Positions 9,349-39,512 of a stretch of DNA of 39,512 bases are shown in pieces (the stretch's first letter is position 1; the number at the start of each line of letters is the position of its first letter). Under the pieces are notes generated by a model, which saw only the letters and a program-made list of their open reading frames with translations, was not told the origin of the DNA and made no database searches. The position numbers and the translations under genes are program-made. The DNA comes from Clostridia bacterium (GTDB taxonomy: Bacteria > Bacillota > Clostridia > Oscillospirales > CAG-382). The stretch is from the NCBI GenBank assembly GCA_017561145.1, contig JAFZDO010000032.1, forward strand, positions 1 to 39,512. Reading direction: 5' to 3'.

Positions 9349-9350
9349 TA

Positions 9351-9375
9351 AAAAAGGCACTTCCCACGAAGTGCC
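9351..9375. terminator. Terminator hairpin P5 of element copy A
   Basis: GGCACTTC/GAAGTGCC with loop CCAC and an A run on its left. It terminates the minus-strand copper transcript and may also stop the M48 gene from the other side. Confidence 0.85.
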
Positions 9376-9587
9376 TTCAGACCGAAGACAAATGGTCTGT
9401 TTACACCCTTGAAAGGAAAAATAACAAAAAAGAGTTCTTTCGTTTACATCGGAAGAACTCTTGATTTTTATAAGGAATTTTGAAATTTTATTGTATTTTC
9501 AAGGGTTTTAACGAAAAGCTCGACTACCTTACCTTTGTAAGCCTACGCTCGCTTTTCGTTAAAAACAGCCTCATTTCTCTCAGTCTG
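9351..9587 (-). ncRNA. Structured 3' element, copy A (downstream part of copA)
   Basis: Read on the minus strand, this stretch folds into an ordered set of helices that recurs at 31222-31464. P0 is AAACAG/CTGTTT. P1 is AACGAAAAGC/GCTTTTCGTT (9551-9560 with 9510-9519), with an inner stem CTTAC/GTAAG. P2 is a long-range TTTCAAGGGT/ACCCTTGAAA-type pairing (9497-9506 with 9405-9414) that encloses P3, a stem of about 12 bp followed by a U run. P4 is CAGACC/GGTCTG. P5 is GGCACTTC/GAAGTGCC with a U run. The 5' end overlaps the last codons of copA, so the element is probably transcribed as the 3' end of the copper operon. Both P3 and P5 look like terminators. I do not recognise the family. Confidence 0.8.
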
Positions 9588-11729
9588 TTTCAGCTTGACT
9601 CTTTTCAAAAGCAGAGAATTGGTAACGACCGAAACCGATGAAAACGCCATCGCGCCACCTGCGATAATGGGGTTCAACAGTCCGAATGCGGCAAGCGGAA
9701 TACCGATGACGTTATAGAAAAACGCCCAGAACAGATTCTGCTTTATCTTTCGCATCGTCGCACGTGAAAGCATCATTGCAAAGGAAAGAGCGCTGATATC
9801 GCTTCCGACAAGCACGATATCGCCCGATTCGATGGCAATATCGGTGCCGCTTCCTATTGCAAATCCGACGTCGGACGCCGCAAGCGCAGGCGAATCGTTT
9901 ATACCGTCGCCGACCATAGCAACCGTTTTATATTTTTCCTTCAAGCGTTCAATTTCCTTTACCTTACCGTCGGGAAGCACGTTTGCAATATATTCGTCAA
10001 CGCCGACAGTATTAGCAACCGCTCTTGCAGTTTCCTCGTTATCGCCGGTAACCAAAACCGTACGAATACCCAACGCCTTTAACCTATGAACCGAATCAGT
10101 AGCATTGCTCCTGACAGCATCGGATATCGCAAAGGCAACGCTCGGCTGACCGTCGATAGCACAGACCACAAGCGTATTACCGCCGCTTGCGAGAGCAATA
10201 ACGCCGTCGTCAAGCTTTAAATTACATTCCTTTTCTATCCAATCGGGCTTTCCGACGAGAACGCTTTTGCCGTTTATCCTTGCAATAACGCCCTTGCCCG
10301 TGACCGATTCAAAGCTTTCGCATTCAAGCACTTCCTTGCAAAGCGATGCGATAACAACGCCTATCGGATGCTCAGATCCTGCCTCGGCGCTTGCCGCATA
10401 GACGACCGAATTTTCGTTTCCGTCGAGAATAACCGTTTCTCTGACGCTCGGCTTACCCTCGGTAAGGGTACCCGTTTTGTCAAGCACTATCGCCTTTATC
10501 GCACAAGCCTGCTCCAACGCGTCGGCGTTTTTGATCAAGACCCCGTTCGAAGCACCGCGACCGATACCGACCATCAATGCAGTCGGAGTTGCAAGCCCCA
10601 ACGAGCAGGGACAGGCGATAACAAGAACGGCAACCGCCGAATCAAGCGCATCCAAGGCGTTGTATCCGATAAAATAAGTCAATAAAAAGGTAATAAGCGA
10701 TATTCCCGTAACCGCAGGCACGAAAACAGCGGCAACCTTGTCTGCTATCGATTGGATATGTGCCTTTGTCGATTGCGCCTCCTCGACAAGACGGATAATG
10801 CCCGAAAGGACGGTATCGCCTCCGACACCCTCGGCGCGGAAATAAAAGGAACCGTTCCCGTTCACCGTACCGCCGAAGACCTTATCGCCAACGCGCTTTG
10901 CAACAGGCATGCTTTCGCCGGTCAGCGCCGATTCGTCGATATGGCTTTCGCCCTTGACGACGATTCCGTCGGCAGGGATCGATTCACCCGGACGGACGAG
11001 AATAATATCTCCGACAATTATATCGGAAACGGGAATGACCTCTTCCACCCCGTTCCGCACGACCGTTGCGCTTTTCGGTGCAAGGTCGGTCAATTTTTCA
11101 ATAGCCTCGTTCGTTCTTGCACGCGCACGCGATTCGAGCGTTTTGCCGAGAAGAACGAGAGTGATTATCATCGCCGAGCTTTCGAAATAAAAGGTTCCGT
11201 ATGCTCCGTTTGCAATAAGACTGTAAACGCTGTAGGCATAAGAAGCCGTCGTACCCAAGGCGACCAAAAGGTCCATGCTCGGGCTTTTGTTCATCAGACT
11301 CTTAAATGCGCCTCTGTAAAAGCGCCAACCCGCCACAAGCTGTATGGGAGTTGCAAAAATCAACTGCAATATCCCGTTGTGAAGAAAATGCACGACAGAG
11401 CTTTCGGGGATGATGAACATAAGCGCCATCATAATAAAAAAGGGCAACGAAAAAACAAGCGAGAAGATAAAAAGCCTTAAATTGCCCTTGAATTCCCGCT
11501 TTTTCGCCTCGCGCACGTCCTCCAAAACCTCATATCCCGCTTTTTTTATCGCCCTTTCGAGAGTCTTGATATTTACCCGTTCGTCGTCGAATATCACCTC
11601 TGCCCTGCCGTTTGCATAAGAAACGGAACAGCCTTCAACGCCGTCAACAGCGCAAATGGCATGCTCAACCGCGGCGGAGCATCGAACGCAAGACATTCCG
11701 CCGACCTTTATCGTTTTTTGAACTTTCAT
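9543..11729 (-). CDS. copA: Copper-exporting P1B-type ATPase
   Basis: A 728-aa heavy-metal P-type ATPase that pumps Cu(I) out of the cytoplasm. It has one N-terminal HMA domain with GMSCVRC (C14, C17), then eight membrane helices. The ion-binding CPC is at 373-375, followed by the phosphorylation motif DKTGTLTEG and the hinge [14 protein letters not shown]. The last-helix motif [13 protein letters not shown] is typical of Cu(I) pumps. Its ATG overlaps the copZ stop as ATGA, so translation is coupled. The last 15 or so residues ([15 protein letters not shown]) are encoded inside the structured element and reappear in frame beside an unrelated gene at about 31412-31462. No copper repressor gene is adjacent. 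Confidence 0.96.
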
Positions 11730-15200: not shown

Positions 15201-17150
15201 ATGAAAAGAATTCTCAAATTCGCGCTCCTGACCCTCTTGTCGTTGGCAATGCTCACAAGCGCTATCCCCGCTGTGTCGGCAAAAACCTACGATAACACGG
15301 TCGAGGTCAAAATAAGCGGCGTCGACATAAAAACCGACAACGGTTATTTCTTCCTTTACCCCAACAAGACCGATTCGGTTCGCAAGATCAAGGCAGACGA
15401 ATACAACTTCCGTTACACCAAGATCTTCGTTTTCGATAAAGACGGCAAAATGATCGAGGCGGGCGAGAATATGTTCGCAAACAGCGCAACTCAATCGGGC
15501 TCGATCCAGGAATATCTTTCCATCCCCGCAGGCGGATTTGCATTTGCCTTCAAGGGTGCAGGCTCTCCCGAGCTTAAGAATTGCTACTCTGTCGTTACCG
15601 AAAACGCAATGCACTACAACTCGACGATCTCGGTCATCCACGAGGCAATAGGTAGCTATACCGATACCCACTTTACCGTTAAATACAACAACGTAAAAAA
15701 ATCCGAAACCGCAAAGAAATATCTCTTTGTCGGCAACAGCGCCACCTACGTAAACGGCACGCCCATTAAGTTCAAGGGCCTAGCCCTCGCCGCAGGCTTG
15801 GATATCGACGTTGCATACAGCACCGTAGGCAGCTCCTATCTTTCCGAATTTGCAAACGAAAGCCATACAAACGGCATCACTCTCCGCAGAAAGCTCAAGG
15901 ATGCAAAATACGATTACGTCGTTCTTCAAGACGCAGGCAGCTGTGTTTATTACAACACCAAGCCCGCAGTCGAAAAGCTCCTTCCCCTGATCAAGGAAAA
16001 CGGCGCGGAGGCTCTGCTTTATATGCGCTATTCCGCATCCTCCTCCGCACAGGGTCGTAAAGAGGGCGCAAAGCAGCACTTTGATAACTATTCAAAGATC
16101 TCCGAGGAATTCGATATTCCCTATGCTCCCGCGGCGCTTGCATATGCTATCTGTACCGAAAAATATCCCGAAATAGACCTTTATTCCGACGATAACTCCC
16201 ACCACTCCAAGGAGGGCAGCTATCTTATCGCCTGCACGATGCTTATGTCCTATCTCGGCAAGGACCCGAGAGGAAACAGCTATGACGCTCAGCTCGGCGA
16301 TATCGCGGCAAAATTGCAAGAATGTGCTTACATCGCCTGCACCGAGGGCTATGATTTCGAAGAAGAAAAGGTAAAAGAGGACGTCTATACCGATAAGAAC
16401 GGCGATATCTATAAGAACGTCGCGGCTAAGAAGCCCTACACCGTCACCGGTTCTGTATACACCTCCGACAAATGGACCGACGCCAATGCAGACGGCTCGC
16501 CCATCGGCAAGCTTACCGACGGCACCTACGCAGAAGACGGCACCGACCCCATGGTCGGCTGCTGGAAGGACGACGGTCACTCGGTAACCATCGACCTCGG
16601 CAGCATTTCACAGCTCCGCGCATTCAAGACAGATATGTTCGGTAACAACGCTTGGGGTATTACCGACCCGAAGGACGCAAAGGTAACCGTTGAAATTTCC
16701 AACGACGGCGTTAAATTCAATTCCGTCGGCACGGCAAGCTCCTCCAACAAAACACAAGACGGCGATTGGTTGAGATATGATTTCATGCTCGAGCTCGGCG
16801 CTCCCGTTATGGCAAAATACGTCCGACTCACCTTTAACGGCGGCGTCTTCAACTGGGTAAGCGAAATCAGCGTTTACGGCACGGAAGGCTCGGGCGGCTC
16901 GGGCGGCACGACCGATACCTCCGAAGAGACCGATACCTCCAAAGAGACCGATACCTCCAAAGAGACCGATTCGGATACTCAGGAAGGCCAGAACGGTCAG
17001 ACAAGCGATGAAGCGGCATCTGCCGAAGAAAGCCTCCCCGAATACGTCGAGCACGAAAACAAGAGCATTGCATGGCTCTATTGGGTCATCGGCGGCGTTG
17101 TGGTCGTTGCGGTAATCGCGATCGCTATCTTTATCACAAAGAAGAAATAA
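15201..17150 (+). CDS. Membrane-anchored SGNH-hydrolase-like protein with discoidin domain
   Basis: A 649-aa surface protein. After a signal peptide (about 1-28) and a beta-rich N-terminal region comes a DUF4886-type SGNH hydrolase domain. It has FVGNSAT (catalytic-type S180), KYDYVVLQDAG and the C-terminal DNSHHSKEGSY block (D331, H334). Such domains are esterase-like, often removing acetyl groups from polysaccharides; the substrate here is unknown. An F5/8 C (CBM32-like) domain follows at about 415-560. Then come a TDTSKET repeat stalk and a C-terminal membrane helix with KKK. GAGG precedes the ATG. The next gene is a paralogue with a different C-terminus. Confidence 0.88.
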   Translation: MKRILKFALLTLLSLAMLTSAIPAVSAKTYDNTVEVKISGVDIKTDNGYFFLYPNKTDSVRKIKADEYNFRYTKIFVFDKDGKMIEAGENMFANSATQSGSIQEYLSIPAGGFAFAFKGAGSPELKNCYSVVTENAMHYNSTISVIHEAIGSYTDTHFTVKYNNVKKSETAKKYLFVGNSATYVNGTPIKFKGLALAAGLDIDVAYSTVGSSYLSEFANESHTNGITLRRKLKDAKYDYVVLQDAGSCVYYNTKPAVEKLLPLIKENGAEALLYMRYSASSSAQGRKEGAKQHFDNYSKISEEFDIPYAPAALAYAICTEKYPEIDLYSDDNSHHSKEGSYLIACTMLMSYLGKDPRGNSYDAQLGDIAAKLQECAYIACTEGYDFEEEKVKEDVYTDKNGDIYKNVAAKKPYTVTGSVYTSDKWTDANADGSPIGKLTDGTYAEDGTDPMVGCWKDDGHSVTIDLGSISQLRAFKTDMFGNNAWGITDPKDAKVTVEISNDGVKFNSVGTASSSNKTQDGDWLRYDFMLELGAPVMAKYVRLTFNGGVFNWVSEISVYGTEGSGGSGGTTDTSEETDTSKETDTSKETDSDTQEGQNGQTSDEAASAEESLPEYVEHENKSIAWLYWVIGGVVVVAVIAIAIFITKKK

Positions 17151-17159
17151 TCAAATCAC

Positions 17160-17188
17160 GGGAAGGATAAAGCACCCTTCCCTTTTTT
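17160..17188 (+). terminator. Intrinsic terminator between the SGNH/discoidin genes
   Basis: GGGAAGG/CCTTCCC stem followed by T6. Confidence 0.88.
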
Positions 17189-17228
17189 ATATATACGCGC
17201 CTGCATCGCAATTTATATATTTTGCCGA

Positions 17229-17257
17229 TTGACAACTTTAGCATAATAATGTATAAT
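17229..17257 (+). promoter_or_regulatory. Sigma-A promoter of the dockerin-bearing gene
   Basis: TTGACA (17229-17234), 17-bp spacer, TATAAT (17252-17257): a consensus promoter. Confidence 0.88.
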
Positions 17258-17290
17258 AACTTCAATCATGATATCTATAAGGAGAGAACT

Positions 17291-20245
17291 ATGAAAAAGG
17301 CAATCAAAAAGGTCTTTTCCCTCGCGTTGATGACAGCCATGCTCGCAACTGCGGTTATCGGCGCCGTACCTGCAAGCGCAAAGACCTATGACAACACGTT
17401 CACCGTTACCATCAACGGTACAAACTGCTCCACGTTAAGCAACAACGTCGTGCTTTACACCAACGACACCGACACGGTACGCGTTATTAAAAGCACCGAT
17501 TATCGCGCTGACAATTTCAGATACTCCAAAATTATGATATTCAACAAGGACGGCCGTCTTATCGAAGCGGGCGGCGACCTTACCCACGTTGACGGCATTA
17601 ACGGCTCTGCTCAGGAATATATCAATATTCCCGCAGGCGGCTTTGCCATCGCTTTCAACCCCAGTGTTACAAACCTCAAAAAATGCTTTGACGTTGCAAT
17701 GGAAGGCGCAGTGCTTTACAATGCGACAATGTCGGTCATCCACGAGGTTATCGGTAGCTACAGCGGAAAAACTCTTACCATTAAGTATGACAACGCAACC
17801 GCTGCTCCCGAAGGTGCAAAGAAATTCCTCTTTGTAGGTAACAGCTCCACCTACTTCAACGGTACCCCCATCAAGTTCAAGGGTCTTGCTCAATCGGCAG
17901 GCGTTGACGTTGACGTTACCTACTGTACCTACGGCAGTGCGTTCCTTTATGAATACGCAAATGCAGGCCACGAACGCGGAAAAGCATTCCGTAACCACTT
18001 AAAAACCGGCAACTTCGATTACGTAGTGCTTCAGGACGGCGGTACTGCCGATTATTCCGACAGTAAGCCCGCAGTTTCCGTGCTTCTTCCTCTTATCAAG
18101 GATAGCGGCGCAGAAGCTCTGCTTTATATGCGCTATTCCTCCAACAGCGACCCTGCTCAAAGATTTATGAGCGCAAGAAAGCACTATATCAACTACACCC
18201 GTCTCTCCCGCGAGTACGGTCTTAACGTTTCTCCCGCGGCGACCTCGTTCCTCATCTGTACCGACAAATATCCCGAAATCAACCTTTATGCGACCGATAA
18301 CTCCCACCACTCCAAGGAGGGTAGCTATCTTATCGCCTGCACCTGGCTCTATTCCTATCTCGGAATCGACCCTGTCGGCGTTGAATACGATGCAGACCTT
18401 GGCGCTGACGTTGCAAGAAAGCTTCAGGAATGCGCAAAGATCGCATGCGAAGAAGAATATGATTATCAGGTAGAGGAAGAGGATCTTCTTCCCGACGAGG
18501 ATATCTATTACGTAAACGGCAACAAATACGAAAGCATTACGGTCAATAAGCCTTATACCACCAACGGCACCGCATATACCGGCACCTGGACCGAGCATAA
18601 CGAAGACGGTTCCCTTATCGGTAAGTACACCAACGGTATTTACGCAGACGATAACGGCTCGAGCTCTGCTATCGGCTGTGTCAAGGGCGCAAAGATAAAC
18701 GTCGATATCGACCTTAAGGGCAAATACGATATCAAGGCGTTCAGAACTCAATTGTACGGCAATCCCGGTTGGGGTATTCCCAATCCGTTCGATACCGCAA
18801 AGAACATCTACGTTGAATTCTCGGTCTCCAACGACGGCAAGAGCTATACCTTGGTCGGCAAGGCAGACGCTATCAAGGCGTTCGATGACGGCGATTGGAC
18901 AAAGGCAGTATATACTCTCGAGCCCAAAGAAAAGACCGAAGCAAGATATATCCGTGCGACCTTCTATAACACCGGCTTCCTCTGGTGCGATGAGATCAGC
19001 GCATACGGTGTCGAAGGCGGCAATATCGCGCTTAACAAGGATTACACCGTTTCTGGCGTAGGCGAAAGAAAGGATTCCTATTGCGCCAAGCTCAACGACG
19101 GTATCGCAACCGATAAGGTAGAATACGGCAAGGGTGAAGCAAGCACCTGGTTCGGCTTCTATTACCACACCGCATATAGCGACATCAATGCTCCGAACAG
19201 CCTCGGTACCGTTACCTACGATTTCGAAAAGCTCCACACTATCGACAAGGTAAGAGTTCACACCCTCTTCGGTAACACCTCAGGCATCAAATCACCTCAA
19301 TATATCAGCGTTGAAACCTCCGAAGACGGAACCACCTTTACCGAGGTTGCAAAGCAAACCTATTCCCCCTCCTCGGGCGCAGACGTCAAGTGGGCAGAAA
19401 TCGCTCTCAATAAGCCCGTTGACGCAAGATTCGTCCGCGTTTGCGTTAAGCTCGACGGAACCTTTGCATTCATCAATGAAATTGAAATCTACGGTGAAGA
19501 AAAGGTCGAGGGTGGCAACGACGATGACGATGAAGTTATCGAAGGCGAAAATCTCGCACTCGGCAAGGAATACACCACCCATTCTCCTCTCGACGGATAT
19601 AACGCAAAGCTCACCGACGGCATCAAGTCCGACAAGATGGCATACAGCGGCGACGTTTGGTTTGCCTTCAAGTGCCATCCCGACGATGCTTCGGGCAACA
19701 CCGGCGGTAACAGATTCGGTACCGTTACCATCGACCTCGGTGCTATCTATGATATCAGCGGCGTTAACATCAACACCATCTATAACGATGCGTCGGGTAT
19801 CAGCATCTGCTACGGTGCAAACGTTTATCTCTCCGACGACGGCGAAAGCTGGAGCAGCGCTTACCAGCTCAACGTTCCCGATGAATCCGAGCTTTATGCG
19901 AACGCAGTCTACACCGTAGGCGGTTCGGTAAAGGGCAGTGCAAGATTCGTTAAGATCGAAGCTTATCTCGGCGCAAAATCCTTCCTCTTCATCGATGAGA
20001 TCGAGGTTATCGGCAAGGAAAAGCAGGCAGGCGGCGATGACGAATTCACCCTCGGCGACGTAAACGGCAAGGACGGCATCGAAAAGTACGACTATATCGC
20101 AGTTAAGCGTGCGGTCATGGGTACTCTTACTCTTGACGAAACTCAACAAAAGGCTGCTGACGTAAACAAGAAGGACGGAGTCGAAAAGTACGACTACATC
20201 CTCATCAAGCGCCACGTAATGGGCACTTACAAGATCGGCGGATAA
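17291..20245 (+). CDS. Secreted SGNH-hydrolase-like protein with three discoidin domains and a dockerin
   Basis: A 984-aa secreted protein. It has a signal peptide (about 1-30, ending VPASAK), then the same N-terminal and DUF4886/SGNH modules as its upstream paralogue. These include FVGNSST (S185), DYVVLQDGG and DNSHHSKEGSY (D336, H339). Three discoidin-like beta-sandwiches follow (about 420-575, 580-735 and 745-905). A C-terminal type I-like dockerin has two repeats, GDVNGKDGIEKYDY and ADVNKKDGVEKYDY, starting at D923 and D957. The dockerin implies docking onto a cohesin-bearing scaffold, none of which is in this window. I chose the ATG preceded by GGAGAG. An upstream in-frame start falls inside the promoter. 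Confidence 0.92.
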   Translation: MKKAIKKVFSLALMTAMLATAVIGAVPASAKTYDNTFTVTINGTNCSTLSNNVVLYTNDTDTVRVIKSTDYRADNFRYSKIMIFNKDGRLIEAGGDLTHVDGINGSAQEYINIPAGGFAIAFNPSVTNLKKCFDVAMEGAVLYNATMSVIHEVIGSYSGKTLTIKYDNATAAPEGAKKFLFVGNSSTYFNGTPIKFKGLAQSAGVDVDVTYCTYGSAFLYEYANAGHERGKAFRNHLKTGNFDYVVLQDGGTADYSDSKPAVSVLLPLIKDSGAEALLYMRYSSNSDPAQRFMSARKHYINYTRLSREYGLNVSPAATSFLICTDKYPEINLYATDNSHHSKEGSYLIACTWLYSYLGIDPVGVEYDADLGADVARKLQECAKIACEEEYDYQVEEEDLLPDEDIYYVNGNKYESITVNKPYTTNGTAYTGTWTEHNEDGSLIGKYTNGIYADDNGSSSAIGCVKGAKINVDIDLKGKYDIKAFRTQLYGNPGWGIPNPFDTAKNIYVEFSVSNDGKSYTLVGKADAIKAFDDGDWTKAVYTLEPKEKTEARYIRATFYNTGFLWCDEISAYGVEGGNIALNKDYTVSGVGERKDSYCAKLNDGIATDKVEYGKGEASTWFGFYYHTAYSDINAPNSLGTVTYDFEKLHTIDKVRVHTLFGNTSGIKSPQYISVETSEDGTTFTEVAKQTYSPSSGADVKWAEIALNKPVDARFVRVCVKLDGTFAFINEIEIYGEEKVEGGNDDDDEVIEGENLALGKEYTTHSPLDGYNAKLTDGIKSDKMAYSGDVWFAFKCHPDDASGNTGGNRFGTVTIDLGAIYDISGVNINTIYNDASGISICYGANVYLSDDGESWSSAYQLNVPDESELYANAVYTVGGSVKGSARFVKIEAYLGAKSFLFIDEIEVIGKEKQAGGDDEFTLGDVNGKDGIEKYDYIAVKRAVMGTLTLDETQQKAADVNKKDGVEKYDYILIKRHVMGTYKIGG

Positions 20246-22252: not shown

Positions 22253-22828
22253 ATGAAAAAGACTTTAATACTCGTACTCACCCTTATAATGGTGTTTGCG
22301 TTTTGCGCCTGCTCCGATTCCAACGGTGAAATAATCGTTGCCCAAGGTCTTAAGCTTGCAGGCAATCAGGCAGGCAACCAAGCAGTTGAATACAGCTTCA
22401 CCTACCCCGAGGAATGGTCGCTCATCCGTAACGACGGCGTTATTGAGATCCAATTCGATTGCAACGAATCGAATATGTATGCACAGTACGCAACGATAAG
22501 CGTTCTCTCCTTCTCGCTTCAGGATCCCACTCAGGCAGCTAAGCCCTATTGGACCGAACACGAAAAGCAGCTCCAAACCATTTATACCGATTACAAGCTT
22601 ATCGACACCAAGGAATACCTTGAAGAAAAGGATCTCCTTGATGACGTCCCTGCATTGAAGGTTAAATATTCGGGCAAGATAAACGATATCACCTATCTCA
22701 ACGAGCAGATCATCGCCTGCCGCGAGGGTCAGGTCTACCTTATCACCTTGGTCGTTCCCGAGGAAAGCTATGAAAAGGTCGAAAACGCAATGAACGTCGT
22801 TAAGTCCGAGTTCACCTTCGTAAAATAA
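22253..22828 (+). CDS. Putative lipoprotein, PsbP/DUF1795-like
   Basis: A 191-aa exported protein. The N-terminus MKKTLILVLTLIMVFAFCAC followed by SDSNGE looks like a lipoprotein signal with a loose lipobox. The mature part begins with a stretch typical of PsbP-like or DUF1795 proteins (YSFTYPEEWSLIRNDGVIEI) and closes with a VENAMNVVKSEF pattern. Such domains occur in many clostridial lipoproteins of unknown role. GAGAGG precedes the ATG. It is the second gene of a two-gene operon and is followed by a strong terminator. Confidence 0.78.
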   Translation: MKKTLILVLTLIMVFAFCACSDSNGEIIVAQGLKLAGNQAGNQAVEYSFTYPEEWSLIRNDGVIEIQFDCNESNMYAQYATISVLSFSLQDPTQAAKPYWTEHEKQLQTIYTDYKLIDTKEYLEEKDLLDDVPALKVKYSGKINDITYLNEQIIACREGQVYLITLVVPEESYEKVENAMNVVKSEFTFVK

Positions 22829-22840
22829 AATCCATATAAA

Positions 22841-22883
22841 AAAGCAAGTGTACTTCCGCATCGTACGAAAGTACACTTTTTTT
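22841..22883. terminator. Intrinsic terminator, bidirectional
   Basis: AGTGTACTT/AAGTACACT stem flanked by an A run and T7. It lies between the lipoprotein and the convergent putP gene. Confidence 0.88.
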
Positions 22884-22916
22884 GCTTATTTAAAAAGGTC
22901 GAAGCAGTTTTTTTCT

Positions 22917-24479
22917 TTATTCGATCTCTCCGCTCTTTGCCGCTTCGAAATCCTCTTCGATCTCTTTGCTCGGCTTCTTGGTGAGAAGCGAAACGACCAC
23001 GATAAAGATACAGGAAACGATAAACGCGGGAAGAAGCTCATAAATACCGAACACGCCGCCCATGGGCTTTAAAAGAAGCTTCCATACGAAAACTACTATA
23101 CCGCCCGAAAGCATACCTGCAATCGCGCCTGCGCGTGTAGCACGCTTCCAGAAGAGCGAGAAGAGCACGAGCGGACCGAAGGTCGCGCCGAAGCCTGCCC
23201 AAGCAAAGGAAACGATCTGGAAGATAACGCTGTTTTCATCGATAGCGATGATAACGCCGATAACCGAAAGAACAAGCAAGGTGATGCGCGACATAAGCAT
23301 TACCTGCTTGTCGGTAGCATTCTTTTTGAACAAGCCCTGGAAAATGTTCTTCGAAAACGCGGAAGCCGCAATAAGAAGATAAGAGTCGGAGGAGCTCATT
23401 GTTGCGGCAAGAATACCTGCCATAACGAATCCCGCAAGCACCGCAGGAAGCAAGCCTGTCGAAAGCGTGATAAAGATATTTTCGGAAGAAGCAGAGGTAA
23501 GATGAGCAGTCGGCTCGAGCGTTCTGCCGATAAGACCGATAAATACCGCAACCGCAAGCGAAATGACGACCCAAACCACCGCGATACGGCGGGAGCGCTT
23601 CAATTCGCCTTCCTTACGGATAGCCATAAAGCGGAGAAGCACCTGAGGCATACCGAAGTAACCCAAGCCCCAAGCAAGAGTCGAGCAAACGGTAAGAGCA
23701 CCGTATTTTGCCGCCTCGCCGAACTGAGGAACACCGTTTATAACGGTCTGTGCGCCGTCGGCACCAAGCTCGGGAGAAGCCATACCGAAAAATTCAAGGA
23801 AGCCGGGGATATTCTGCGAATTTTCGATAACCGCACCGATACCGCCGGCGTTTATAGTACCGACGATAACCACAACTGCAAGCGCAACGACCATAATGAT
23901 CGCCTGGAAGAAGTCGGAAATACTTTCGGCAAGGAAGCCGCCGAGCAGAGTATATGCAACGACGAATACCGCACCGATGATCATCATAACGGTATAATCG
24001 GCATCAAAAAGCGCCGAGAACAGCTTGCCGCAGGTAACGAAGCAGCTGGAAGCGTAAACAGTGAAAAATACAAGAATAAAGATCGCCGAGATCGAAAGAA
24101 TGATCTTTTTCTTTTCTCTGTAACGGTTAGAAAAGAATTCGGGGAGCGTGATAGCGTTGGTACGAACGCTGTAGCGTCTTAAGCGCTTGGAAACGAGAAG
24201 CCAGTTGATATAAGTACCTGCCGCAAGACCGATAGCAGTCCAAGCAGCATCGGCAAGACCGCACCAATAAGCAACACCGGGCAAACCCATAAGCAGCCAG
24301 CCCGACATATCCGAAGCCTCTGCGCTCATTGCAGTGACCCACGGGCCAAGCGTTCTGCCGCCGAGGAAATAATCCGCGGAGCTGCGGTTGGCACGCTTTG
24401 AATAAAAAATACCGATAAATACAACGGCAGCCATGTAAACACACATAGCGATGATAATTTGTATCTGTTCGCTCGTCAT
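22917..24479 (-). CDS. putP: Sodium/proline-type symporter (SSS family)
   Basis: A 520-aa membrane protein with about 13 helices of the sodium:solute symporter family. Typical PutP segments are SADYFLGGRTLGPWVTAMSAEASDMSGWLLMGLPG, YSVRTNAITLPEFFSNRY and GFVMAGILAATMSSSDSYLL. It imports proline or a related solute with sodium. I chose the ATG with AAGGGA 8 nt upstream; a TTG eight codons earlier lacks an SD. It is monocistronic, with its own consensus-like promoter. The family is certain, the exact substrate probable. Confidence 0.92.
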   Translation of the reverse strand: MTSEQIQIIIAMCVYMAAVVFIGIFYSKRANRSSADYFLGGRTLGPWVTAMSAEASDMSGWLLMGLPGVAYWCGLADAAWTAIGLAAGTYINWLLVSKRLRRYSVRTNAITLPEFFSNRYREKKKIILSISAIFILVFFTVYASSCFVTCGKLFSALFDADYTVMMIIGAVFVVAYTLLGGFLAESISDFFQAIIMVVALAVVVIVGTINAGGIGAVIENSQNIPGFLEFFGMASPELGADGAQTVINGVPQFGEAAKYGALTVCSTLAWGLGYFGMPQVLLRFMAIRKEGELKRSRRIAVVWVVISLAVAVFIGLIGRTLEPTAHLTSASSENIFITLSTGLLPAVLAGFVMAGILAATMSSSDSYLLIAASAFSKNIFQGLFKKNATDKQVMLMSRITLLVLSVIGVIIAIDENSVIFQIVSFAWAGFGATFGPLVLFSLFWKRATRAGAIAGMLSGGIVVFVWKLLLKPMGGVFGIYELLPAFIVSCIFIVVVSLLTKKPSKEIEEDFEAAKSGEIE

Positions 24480-31221: not shown

Positions 31222-31247
31222 CAAAAAGGGACTTCGCATGAAGTCCC
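31222..31247. terminator. Terminator hairpin P5 of element copy B
   Basis: GGGACTTC/GAAGTCCC with a 4-nt loop and an A run on its left. It is the end of the minus-strand element and lies just after the DUF4855 gene on the other strand. Confidence 0.85.
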
Positions 31248-31464
31248 TTCAGACCGAAGACAAATGGTCTGTTTACACCCTTGAAAAGAAAAACAACAAA
31301 AAAGCGCTCTTTCGTAATTATTCGAAGGAGCGCTTAATTTTTATAAGGAATTTAAATTTTTTATTGTATTTTCAAGGGTTTTGAAGAAAAACTTCGACTG
31401 CCGTAGTTTTCTACGCCAACGCTCGTTTTTCTTCAAAAACAGCCTCATTTCTCTCGGTCTGCTT
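31222..31464 (-). ncRNA. Structured 3' element, copy B
   Basis: This is the second copy of the element at 9351-9587, read on the minus strand and lying directly after the stop of the repeat-protein gene. The same helices appear with changed bases. P1 is GAAGAAAAAC/GTTTTTCTTC (31425-31434 with 31383-31392), with inner CGTAG/CTACG. P2 TTTCAAGGGT/ACCCTTGAAA pairs 31370-31379 with 31277-31286. P3 has a GCGCTC/GAGCGC core (31302-31314 with 31323-31335). P4 is CAGACC/GGTCTG and P5 is GGGACTTC/GAAGTCCC. A 41-nt block (31246-31286) is identical to 9374-9414. The stem differences are mostly compensatory, which supports selection for RNA structure. Confidence 0.8.
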
Positions 31465-31470
31465 CTTTTG

Positions 31471-32979
31471 TTATTCTCTTTCCCTCGGCTCGTACAAAAC
31501 TATCGGGTCCTTATAGGTTGCGTCCCGGTGCAAAACGCCGTTAAGGTATGTTGTCCTTTTAATAACGATACCGTCCTCATCGTATTCAAGAACGTATTCG
31601 TACTCTTCGGTGGTCTCGCCGTATTGACTGCCGAATTCCTTATAATTATTGTACTCTGTTTTTAAAATTGTGTTGCCGTATTTATCGTATTCAGAGGTGA
31701 TTTTATTTTTCAAGAATTCTTCGCCGCCATCTATACGCTTATAGGTTTCAGAAAGCGTTTCTCTTCCTTTGCCGTCGTATTCTGCAACGATCCTCGTGAA
31801 GATCCCGCTTTTGTAGCCTTCATAAAAAATATCTTGACCATCGGAATTATACTTATATTCATCTTGGATTGTAATATCGCCGTTTTCATCATACGTTATC
31901 ATATATATCAACCGGCTGTCATCGTCGTATGCATATTCGGTTTTTTCCCTAACGTTATCGTCTTTGTCATATATGACACTAAGTATCTTTTTACCGTTTG
32001 CATCGTACGTAGACCTTGTCCTGCTTGTTACGCCGAATTCTCCGTTTGAACGACCCGAACGCTCAAAAAAGACAGTGTTTCCGCTTGCGTCATACTCCCA
32101 AATACGCTTTTCTGTCAATTCATTGCTTTGGTTGTATTTCATCTCAAGCGTCTTATTTCCGTTTTCGTCGTATTCATATACGGTTTTTTGCTCTTTGCCG
32201 TTGGTGTCGGTCTCCTTTACCTCGATCTTCCGACCGTTTGCATCATATTTGTATACCGTTTTTTGCTCTTTGCCGTTGGTGTCGATCTCCTTTACCTCGA
32301 TCTTCCGACCGTTTGCATCATATTTGTATACCGTTTTCGACTCGCCGAATTCGTTTATCCGTGTTTCAACCGATATTTTTCCGTTTTCGTCGTATTGGTA
32401 ATAAGCTTTTGTGATCTGTATTTCACGTCCGGACATACTGTGGGTTTCATGATACCTTATTTTGCCGTCAGAGAAATATTCGTTATAGTCATTTTGAAGC
32501 AGAGTCCCGTCGGCCTTATTCTGCAAATGCAACAGTGTATCACCGTTTTCGTTACATTCGCGTTTTTCACGCAATAAACCCTCTTCGTCGTACCTCGAAA
32601 ACTCGCGTTCTTTCCCGTTTTCATAATACGATCTGAACGTTGTATCGCTCAGATCGCCGTATTCATCATAGTAAAGCAATTCTATATTTAAATAAACAAG
32701 CGTGAAATCCCGTAATATTTCTTTGCTGTCCTTGTAATTTCCAAGCGTTTTTAAGGTGATATAAGCGTCCTTGTAATTACCGTTTTCGATGTCCTCAAGC
32801 GCGTTACCGTATTTCATCGCAGGTACGATATAGGCGACCGTCGCAAACAAAATACAGCCGACGAGCAGTATCGATAGCGCGGTGATGATGATCGCTTTTT
32901 TATGCGAAGCAACAAAGCCCGCCTTTTTTTCGGGCATCTCGTTAAATACCTCTTCTATCTTTTTCATCTCGTTGTTCAT
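31471..32979 (-). CDS. Membrane-anchored YD-like repeat protein
   Basis: A 502-aa protein. It has a cytoplasmic N-terminus of about 25 residues, one membrane helix (about 32-54) and a short helical region (YGNALEDIENGNYKDAYITLKTLGNYKDSKEILRD). The rest is a long series of repeats of the kind YxYDxxGxxxxxxxxDxxG, resembling RHS/YD or YwqK-type beta repeats. Two repeats of 25 residues (YKYDANGRKIEVKE) are almost identical at DNA level. Such repeats form extended sheets that bind carbohydrate or protein; no toxin domain is present. I took the ATG following AAAGGAGG. Its TAA is followed in frame by the peptide tail of the structured element. Confidence 0.85.
   Translation of the reverse strand: MNNEMKKIEEVFNEMPEKKAGFVASHKKAIIITALSILLVGCILFATVAYIVPAMKYGNALEDIENGNYKDAYITLKTLGNYKDSKEILRDFTLVYLNIELLYYDEYGDLSDTTFRSYYENGKEREFSRYDEEGLLREKRECNENGDTLLHLQNKADGTLLQNDYNEYFSDGKIRYHETHSMSGREIQITKAYYQYDENGKISVETRINEFGESKTVYKYDANGRKIEVKEIDTNGKEQKTVYKYDANGRKIEVKETDTNGKEQKTVYEYDENGNKTLEMKYNQSNELTEKRIWEYDASGNTVFFERSGRSNGEFGVTSRTRSTYDANGKKILSVIYDKDDNVREKTEYAYDDDSRLIYMITYDENGDITIQDEYKYNSDGQDIFYEGYKSGIFTRIVAEYDGKGRETLSETYKRIDGGEEFLKNKITSEYDKYGNTILKTEYNNYKEFGSQYGETTEEYEYVLEYDEDGIVIKRTTYLNGVLHRDATYKDPIVLYEPRERE
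32183..32332. repeat. Two tandem 75-bp repeats inside the repeat-protein gene
   Basis: Two near-identical units of 75 bp (25 codons), offset from 32190 to 32265. They differ at few bases, for example GGTCTCC against GATCTCC. This suggests recent in-frame duplication by slippage. Confidence 0.9.
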
Positions 32980-33073
32980 CAAACCGCCTCCTTTAAATAT
33001 TCTTCGTCTATTGCTAATACTCGTCAAAAACGACCCGAGGTTTCATCGTTTTTTTAATTTTTTATTTATTTTA

Positions 33074-38970: not shown

Positions 38971-38999
38971 TTGAATTTCCGTATATTATGTGTTATATT
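38971..38999 (+). promoter_or_regulatory. Probable promoter of the ispA-linked RNA
   Basis: TTGAAT (38971-38976), 17-bp spacer, TATATT (38994-38999). This predicts an RNA start near 39006. Confidence 0.65.
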
Positions 39000-39005
39000 A
39001 TACAT

Positions 39006-39512
39006 GATGGCGCAGTATCCTAGTTGTCCTTCTGCTGCTGAAAGCGTGCCTAAAAATACGCGTAAAGGCAAATCGATGAAGCTCCTTGTGCTTGCTGTCT
39101 ATGCCCAATAGAGGGTGGGTGCTGGGAGAATAGGTTTGTGGGCGGTCTGTAATGGCATACGGAATTCGACCCACCTACCTTTGGAGGCTTTTTTCTGTGG
39201 ATATCCGTACTCAAGAAGGGGTAAGCCCTTAGCATATGAGATATCTACAGTCTAAAGATTAAACCTATCATGCGGTGCATTTTTTGACGCTGTGGATAGA
39301 TGTAGCCTGCCTTGCGTGGATATTGGCGGATACAGGTCTCGCCCGTCGGCGATTAGCTACCAAAGACGGGATATCCCTGTTGAAATCATATCTGCAAAAG
39401 AGGATTAGGCAGATAAGAAGGGGTATTGAGGAAAACTCCTAGGCTGAGTTAGCATCATAGCACATAGGCACAAAACGGATTGCAGTGTGGACTTATAGGC
39501 AATCAAGTCGCG
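39006..39512 (+). ncRNA. Large structured RNA, probable OLE RNA, cut by window end
   Basis: About 510 nt without a credible ORF follow ispA, in a base composition unlike the AT-rich leader before it. Many helices can be drawn: GGTGGGT (39114-39120) with ACCCACC (39169-39175), TCTGT/ACGGA within it, CTGTGGATATC (39195-39205) with GATATCTACAG (39240-39250), AAGGG/CCCTT (39216-39230), TCGCC/GGCGA, and ACAGG (39333-39337) with CCTGT (39376-39380). From family knowledge, OLE RNA (about 600 nt, Firmicutes) lies directly downstream of ispA in an xseB-ispA cluster, which fits. The family name rests on context and size, not on a covariance search. Confidence 0.68.

Follow-up and report, generated by a model that had tools for sequence, protein, structure and literature searches.

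Group IIC introns are mobile structured RNAs that reside at intrinsic terminators. The element described here differs from them in its inverted ends, its target duplication and its two flanking terminators, and neither the window copies nor 18 further loci gave an Rfam match to a group II or group I intron. IStrons are, as far as the accessible part of their description goes (PMC4227781), likewise mobile DNA carrying an RNA that renders the insertion harmless; here, harmlessness would instead stem from the copying of a terminator, and the group I intron match is lacking. Bacterial MITEs such as QMITE2, SPRITE and RUP resemble the element, in the available portion of PMC10969869, in being short, non-coding and intergenic, with inverted ends, a stable transcript fold and a flanking duplication, and SPRITE itself resembles a terminator. 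In contrast to these MITEs, the duplication seen here is a terminator hairpin of variable length, the fold is strand-specific with covariation across the families of a class, and no parent transposon was present among the matches to the terminal palindrome (H) or the right end in 24 genomes of the genus, which are incomplete MAGs. The IS1202 family has TGT ends, and one of its subgroups makes 16-28 bp target duplications without a known target (PMC10132070, available in part). Inverted ends and, for that subgroup, long target duplications are held in common with the present element, which differs by its CAG ends, the lack of a transposase gene and a palindromic duplication of up to 40 nt. REP/BIME repeats and their RAYT (PMC2817692, available in part) are similarly palindromic, located at gene 3' ends and able to form arrays; the element differs in its longer folded core, its target duplication and the lack of a Y1 transposase match in the copy-rich genomes, which are incomplete MAGs. 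Among the matches listed in the open PMC literature, judged by titles and the beginnings of abstracts, there was no report of terminator duplication by a mobile element, and the accessible portions of PMC10132070 and PMC10969869 contain no description of a terminator duplicated in full.

The window analyzed here is a stretch of 39,512 nucleotides of a Clostridia bacterium genome (assembly GCA_017561145.1, contig JAFZDO010000032.1). A first-pass annotation of its letters had described two copies, A and B, of a structured RNA element with stems P0 to P5. We consider it very probable that this is a mobile element: it is repeated and scattered, sits at gene-end terminators whose hairpin is duplicated on both sides, is missing from an empty site at one locus and has a selected fold, and A and B are copies without H and the left terminator (T1). 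The insertion into terminators, the terminator duplication and the left truncation of A and B only become visible when other copies are compared.

Results

Architecture and ends of the element

Intact copies showed a constant order of terminator T1, palindrome H, a core of ∼210 nt and terminator T2. The element has a length of ∼240 bp, consists of the terminal palindrome H and the ∼210 bp core, and is bounded by CAG...CTG. The unit in copy A begins with CAGAC at 9587 and finishes with GTCTG at 9378, with P5 lying beyond it. Nearly all strong matches in the genus spanned query positions 1-212 and stopped where P5 starts, which sets the boundaries of the unit and places P5 outside it. H is located three bases before the core, e.g. 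CAGTTTGCAGACAAAGTCTGCAAACTG. Its 5' half and the right end are imperfect inverted copies of each other (CAGnnnGnAGACAAA in the genus, CAGnnTGTCGAnAAA elsewhere), and the two vary together between families, both as judged by eye; a class-level H is for example CAGCGTGTCGATAAACCTATCGACACGCTG, with the right end altered accordingly (CTTTTTCGACAGTCTG). Locus L048 is an exception, having an H of different sequence that does not match its own right end. In 19 of the 35 copies with an exact duplication the script-called ends were CAG and CTG; the others had different letters, partly through boundary slips, and TGT did not occur among the left ends listed for these copies. With the exception of L048, the element is thus short and non-coding with terminal inverted repeats, and it has a target site duplication; lacking a known parent, it otherwise has the structure that defines a MITE.

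Two further arrangements were observed. A second palindromic repeat (about GGGGTCCCCGAAAAYGC..GCRTTTTNGGGG) was present within the core, in P1 or in the right arm, in copies from several genomes (L040, L041, L125, L135, L060, L066, L082, L083). Head-to-tail core arrays with a period of about 190-220 nt and variable junctions were found at L033, L035, L036, L052 and L054. The first unit of some arrays is without the left arm, in which case P3 would serve as the terminator of the gene.

Copies A and B in the window

The features of the window are listed in Table 1. The likeness of A and B, including a 41-nt identical block, had been pointed out before, and their alignment gave a mean column identity of 89% over the 279 columns compared. 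The search of Rfam 15 resulted in no gathering-threshold match at either copy, and at 18 further loci, with E up to 2, no family matched the core at two loci, so that the description of the element as previously unplaced holds. The Rfam match with the smallest E, BTnc060, was rejected: it had 31 bits compared to a cut-off of 228.9 and did not recur on the 18 other loci.

Table 1. Positions of the element copies and associated features in the window.
Feature	Position	Strand	Basis or remark
Copy A, core	9376..9587	minus	CM match 225 bits (model R1), 180 bits (model R2); fold
Copy A, element proper	9378-9587	minus	
Copy A, P0 closing stem	9586-9564 with 9401-9379		
Copy A, P1 hairpin	9563-9507		
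Copy A, P2	9506-9497 with 9414-9405		
Copy A, P3 hairpin	9460-9432		
T2 of copy A (P5 of the first-pass annotation)	9350..9377	minus	intrinsic terminator-like site directly after the right end of the element
Junction CTGAAA of copy A	9588..9593	minus	stop codon, T1 and H missing here
Heavy-metal P-type ATPase gene	9543..11729	minus	ORF; Pfam E1-E2_ATPase, HMA
Copy B, core	31248..31461	minus	CM match 228 bits (R1), 177 bits (R2); fold
Copy B, element proper	31250-31461	minus	
Copy B, P0	31460-31438 with 31273-31251		
Copy B, P1	31437-31380		
Copy B, P2	31379-31370 with 31286-31277		
Copy B, P3	31333-31304		
T2 of copy B (P5 of the first-pass annotation), host terminator	31222..31249	minus	
RHS-repeat gene	31471..33027	minus	ORF; Pfam RHS_repeat
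Possible relic, lone P3-like terminator hairpin at a gene end	22838..22885	plus	tentative; fold and weak R2 match

The frame of the ATPase gene at copy A runs on to 9543 and ends inside P1, and the stop codon of the gene, T1 and H are all gone. In the ATPase ortholog of genome G012 (L031, L188), the stop codon is followed by T1, H, core and T2. CTGAAA is the gene end in the ATPase ortholog L193 of G006 (AAGCTGAAATGA) and is also the end of H. Because it closes both, the loss of the stop codon, T1 and H in copy A looks, from these sequences, like a deletion between two CTGAAA sites. A clean empty site was not found at this locus when the 3' ends of 15 ATPase loci were compared, as the sequences behind the gene differ. 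Copy B starts 9 nt past the end of the RHS-repeat gene, and H and T1 are absent there as well. A and B are left-truncated, decayed copies of a mobile element. Loss of the left end is common: an intact H was not seen in 30 of the 66 copies surveyed, a few of these because of a short flank or of script limits (L008, L068, L071; L053, L178). A further relic may be the lone P3-like terminator on the plus strand, where model R2 gave a weak match (22761-22925, 25 bits, E 6e-4) and the hairpin resembles P3 of other copies.

Three other features of the window were observed. An OLE RNA (RF01071, 271 bits) lies at 38991-39512 on the plus strand and is cut by the end of the window. At 20057-20227, near the end of a 1007-aa ORF, there are two direct repeats, which we take, from their translation by eye, to resemble dockerin repeats. 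Long direct repeats of 70-85% identity, 2.1 kb apart, were found at 15573-18372 between two adjacent large ORFs, which are probably paralogous genes.

Duplication of the host terminator

Comparison of the loci showed that T1 and T2 are the same hairpin within a locus and different hairpins between loci, which identifies P5 as the terminator of the host. The T1-T2 score exceeded the best of 1122 cross-locus pairs in 30 of the 34 evaluable copies with H (36 copies had H; L032 and L043 were excluded because the flank was too short). Among class-level copies, 17 of 18 evaluable ones were above all 306 cross pairs; 30 of 31 matches had been entered for this scoring, excluding a 28-bit opposite-strand match in L292, and 12 copies without a script-recognized H or enough flank were left unscored. 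The copies that did not beat the cross-locus maximum were L003 (similar stem), L009 (same stem, different loop), L013 and L183 (no match) in the first set and L307 in the second. The right flank formed by P5/T2 differed from locus to locus, the likeness of P5 between A and B being atypical. Of the proposed P0-P5 architecture, the conserved fold P0-P3 therefore stands as one element, whereas P5 is a host terminator that varies by locus and lies outside a unit that closes with CTG (at 9378 in copy A and at 31250 in copy B).

Exact duplications, 19-40 nt long, were found in 35 of 51 copies, and none of at least 14 nt in the remaining 16; the 51 comprise the 34 and 17 class-level copies, with L307 and the second L306 copy excluded and L302, which is not among the 18 scored copies and has no exact duplication, added. 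The first and last 7 bases of the duplication were fully complementary in 21 of the 35, i.e. the whole palindrome is duplicated, and in the others the exact run ended at a mismatch, at an edge slip or inside the hairpin. Some contigs are broken inside the core, and T1 and T2 allowed the split parts to be matched up by eye. The 8 bases preceding T1 contained on average 4.8 A and the 8 bases following T2 on average 5.1 T; the insertion sites look like bidirectional terminators. T2 is followed by a T-run, and CAG comes immediately behind T1 or is separated from it by no more than a few T. At L056, T2 is fitted much better by the reverse complement of T1 than by T1 itself (32 vs 18), a slighter preference of this kind was seen at L013, L031 and L059, and L178 resembles L056 by eye. 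The loop orientation at L056 and L178 is unlike that of most copies and would be consistent with a hairpin-capped intermediate or with subsequent inversion of the loop.

The copies adjoin unrelated genes. The position at gene 3' ends reported earlier was recovered in 33 of the 35 exact-duplication copies: by crude ORF calls, an ORF ends no more than 150 nt away on both sides in 21, on the upstream side alone in 4, on the downstream side alone in 8 and on neither side in 2. In a cruder survey covering 66 copies, 57 had ORF calls on each flank, and 30 of these were arranged convergently. The orientation of the 35 copies relative to the genes showed no clear bias, so that read-through would not necessarily transcribe the core strand.

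Empty sites

Of the two loci examined for empty sites, one, L067 in genome G008, gave clean ones. Here, a 34-nt hairpin is present on each side of the element, between what by eye are an apparent ABC exporter gene and glyS. The orthologous spacers of G014 (L208) and G003 (L205) contain one related hairpin without the element, and in G014 the bases after the single hairpin, GCTCTTTTC, are the same as those after T2 in L067. One unrelated hairpin without the element was found in G004 (L212) and G006 (L211), and G000 and G012 differ in their upstream sequence.

Conservation of the fold and the strand concerned

The predicted folds of copies A and B had z scores of -9.3 and -10.7 with respect to shuffled sequences, and none of 200 shuffles was equally good in either case; the opposite strand of copy A had a z score of -7.6. 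A structure of 53 pairs (P0, P1, P2 and P3) was aligned across 48 full-length cores, in which A and B replaced L001 and L002 and were joined by 46 of the other 47 distinct cores (L071 excluded). In this alignment 95.3% of the pairs were formed, both sides had changed at 29 of the 53 pairs, and the covariation score was 0.403, compared to 0.141 for shuffled alignments (0/500) and 0.05-0.08 with slid partners. The paired substitutions described earlier in P1 and P3 are present. The first-pass annotation had held that its structure claim would weaken if further copies with covariation were absent; they exist as a family of 48 copies, and the claim stands. From the pattern of base changes, the fold of the core is evidently under selection, as had been proposed from A and B.

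In P0 and P1 taken together, 57 G-U cells were counted compared to 4 A-C cells. Over all pairs of two wider sets the counts were 53 vs 10 and 98 vs 8, these alignments being fitted to the model so that their pair counts lean towards it. Neither P2 (A-C 2, G-U 0) nor P3 (A-C 26, G-U 12, cell counts affected by the poor alignment of this stem) showed a G-U excess. Because both strands of a DNA cruciform fold, no G-U excess would be expected from one, and the counts thus support a single strand in the direction of the core, most simply RNA, as the form that matters. The RNA strand of the core may have a role either in moving the element or in making its insertion tolerable: movement could depend on it, or it could shield the host transcript.

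Distribution among genomes

The search of the genome and its relatives with covariance models, suggested in the first-pass annotation, extended the family well beyond A and B. The genome of the window (1.55 Mb, 68% complete) contained 5 copies. Plain DNA search gave matches in 14 of the 24 genus genomes, several of them with 10-20 places and one with up to 20. With model R1, the core was detected at the family level in 19 of 63 genomes, representing 5 of 13 genera, and at the order level in 18 of 394 genomes, representing 8 of 168 genera. Model R2, for which divergent members were used, matched in 35 of 391 class-drawn genomes (28 of 223 genera), with six candidates scored per genome and often all six matching; the single weak matches in G591 and G669 are uncertain. 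The layout T1-H-core-T2 persists in the class-level copies. A pattern scan of named genomes resulted in 50 stretches, all from MAGs titled Clostridia or Oscillospiraceae bacterium, and the hosts, where a title gives one, were goat, sheep, yak, water buffalo and roe deer. By glyS, the genus genomes that carry the element stand nearest to the window (78% or more), and those that lack it had 68-73% or were unmatched; G019 (72%) had one 22-nt DNA match and none by model.

Phage and plasmid records gave no match with a window copy as query, nor did phage records with the class-level copy L290; a plasmid match of 31 bases to L290 was taken as chance. Three patterns applied to viral contigs resulted in 0, 0 and 1 stretch. 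The single viral contig, L317 (5978 bases), contains a core-like match at 602-818 (36.8 bits, E 1.6e-7), near ORFs that appear phage-like by eye.

Search for an autonomous partner or an enzyme

A search of the 24 genus genomes, mostly incomplete MAGs, through either end of the element gave no autonomous copy. The start of the core followed 31 of the 32 H matches, and the other one ends its contig. The right end had 46 matches, 6 of which lay outside strong core matches; inspection by eye showed that 5 of these are decayed copies and 1 is a chance match within a coding gene. ISNCY_2 (NF033594), the one ISNCY model used, matched in none of the 24 genomes. Y1_Tnp (PF01797) was present in 5, and did not match in the copy-rich genomes G003, G004, G006, G008 and G012, in a set of mostly incomplete MAGs. 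Cas1 (PF01867) was detected in 2 genomes of this set, G021 and G022, both without a match to the element. As candidates for an enzyme acting in trans, ISNCY_2, Y1 and Cas1 do not fit the distribution of the element in the genus, in which such co-occurrence comparisons are confounded because presence of the element tracks glyS similarity. We infer that the element is non-autonomous and may be mobilized in trans.

Discussion

Three roles had been offered for the element: a 3' UTR-derived sRNA, a mobile 3' module and a protein-binding element. The T1/T2 duplication, the empty site and the scattered copies single out the mobile 3' module. A vertically inherited, immobile 3' UTR regulatory RNA or sRNA, copied through gene duplication, would agree with the strongly conserved fold and the position at gene 3' ends, but copies with defined ends lie next to unrelated genes, terminators are duplicated around intact copies and empty sites occur at one locus, and this origin is very improbable. 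An alternative is a plain MITE of a conventional DDE transposon making long target duplications like those of IS1202, in which the palindrome would be a mere preference and the fold would simply result from inverted repeats. The ends are inverted and the duplications long, as expected of such a MITE, and 16-28 bp duplications are made by one IS1202 subgroup according to the available text of PMC10132070. Against such a MITE stand a duplication whose length follows the hairpin (19-40 nt), ends that are CAG and not TGT, the ISNCY_2 count of 0 in 24 genus genomes, and internal covariation in P1 and P3 that end repeats leave unexplained; we find it doubtful, with an appreciable chance of being correct all the same.

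The conserved RNA strand and the variable length of the duplication bring to mind a retroelement, the RNA of which would be reverse transcribed into a staggered cut at the terminator, as in target-primed reverse transcription, and a terminator target is shared with group IIC introns. The paired inverted ends on both sides speak against this route, which we consider improbable. Palindromes at gene ends and tandem arrays would also agree with REP/BIME-type repeats moved by a RAYT (Y1) transposase; with Y1_Tnp in 5 of 24 incomplete genus genomes and in none of the copy-rich ones, we give little credence to this relationship. Still less is given to insertion by a Cas1-type integrase, as in casposons or CRISPR repeat duplication: copying of an entire palindromic repeat is reminiscent of CRISPR adaptation, but Cas1 occurred only in G021 and G022 of the 24 incomplete genus genomes, where the element is missing.

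For the mobile element favored here, the following course is conceivable, and we regard it as a real possibility that falls somewhat short of an even chance. A putative enzyme supplied in trans would recognize the ends of the element together with the terminator palindrome, cut at both bases of the palindrome on opposite strands and join the element, after which repair would copy the terminator. When recognized, the palindrome could take the form of an extruded cruciform or of an exposed hairpin. If the stagger spanned the hairpin, repair would yield a duplication whose length follows that of the hairpin. With the T-run after T2, the neighboring gene would keep a working terminator, and the insertion would cost little. 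More tentatively, this may be a class-wide element of Clostridia that targets a DNA secondary structure and not a sequence, in which a putative, possibly resolvase-like and RNA-assisted enzyme would cut the base of the terminator cruciform and the folded RNA would be a working part.

The element appears to be a variant of MITE without a counterpart among the papers listed, with a real chance of being more. If the proposed reading is correct, the enzyme, when identified, could serve to insert DNA at the ends of genes, and there would be an explanation for the palindromic repeats that recur in gut Clostridia and interrupt their assemblies. The core would be a widely conserved RNA with a testable role. 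Bacterial transposition would include a target rule that is defined by structure, in which the hairpin, and not the enzyme, determines the length of the duplication. A widespread bacterial parasite would then insert safely by aiming at terminators and copying them, leaving the neighboring genes properly ended.
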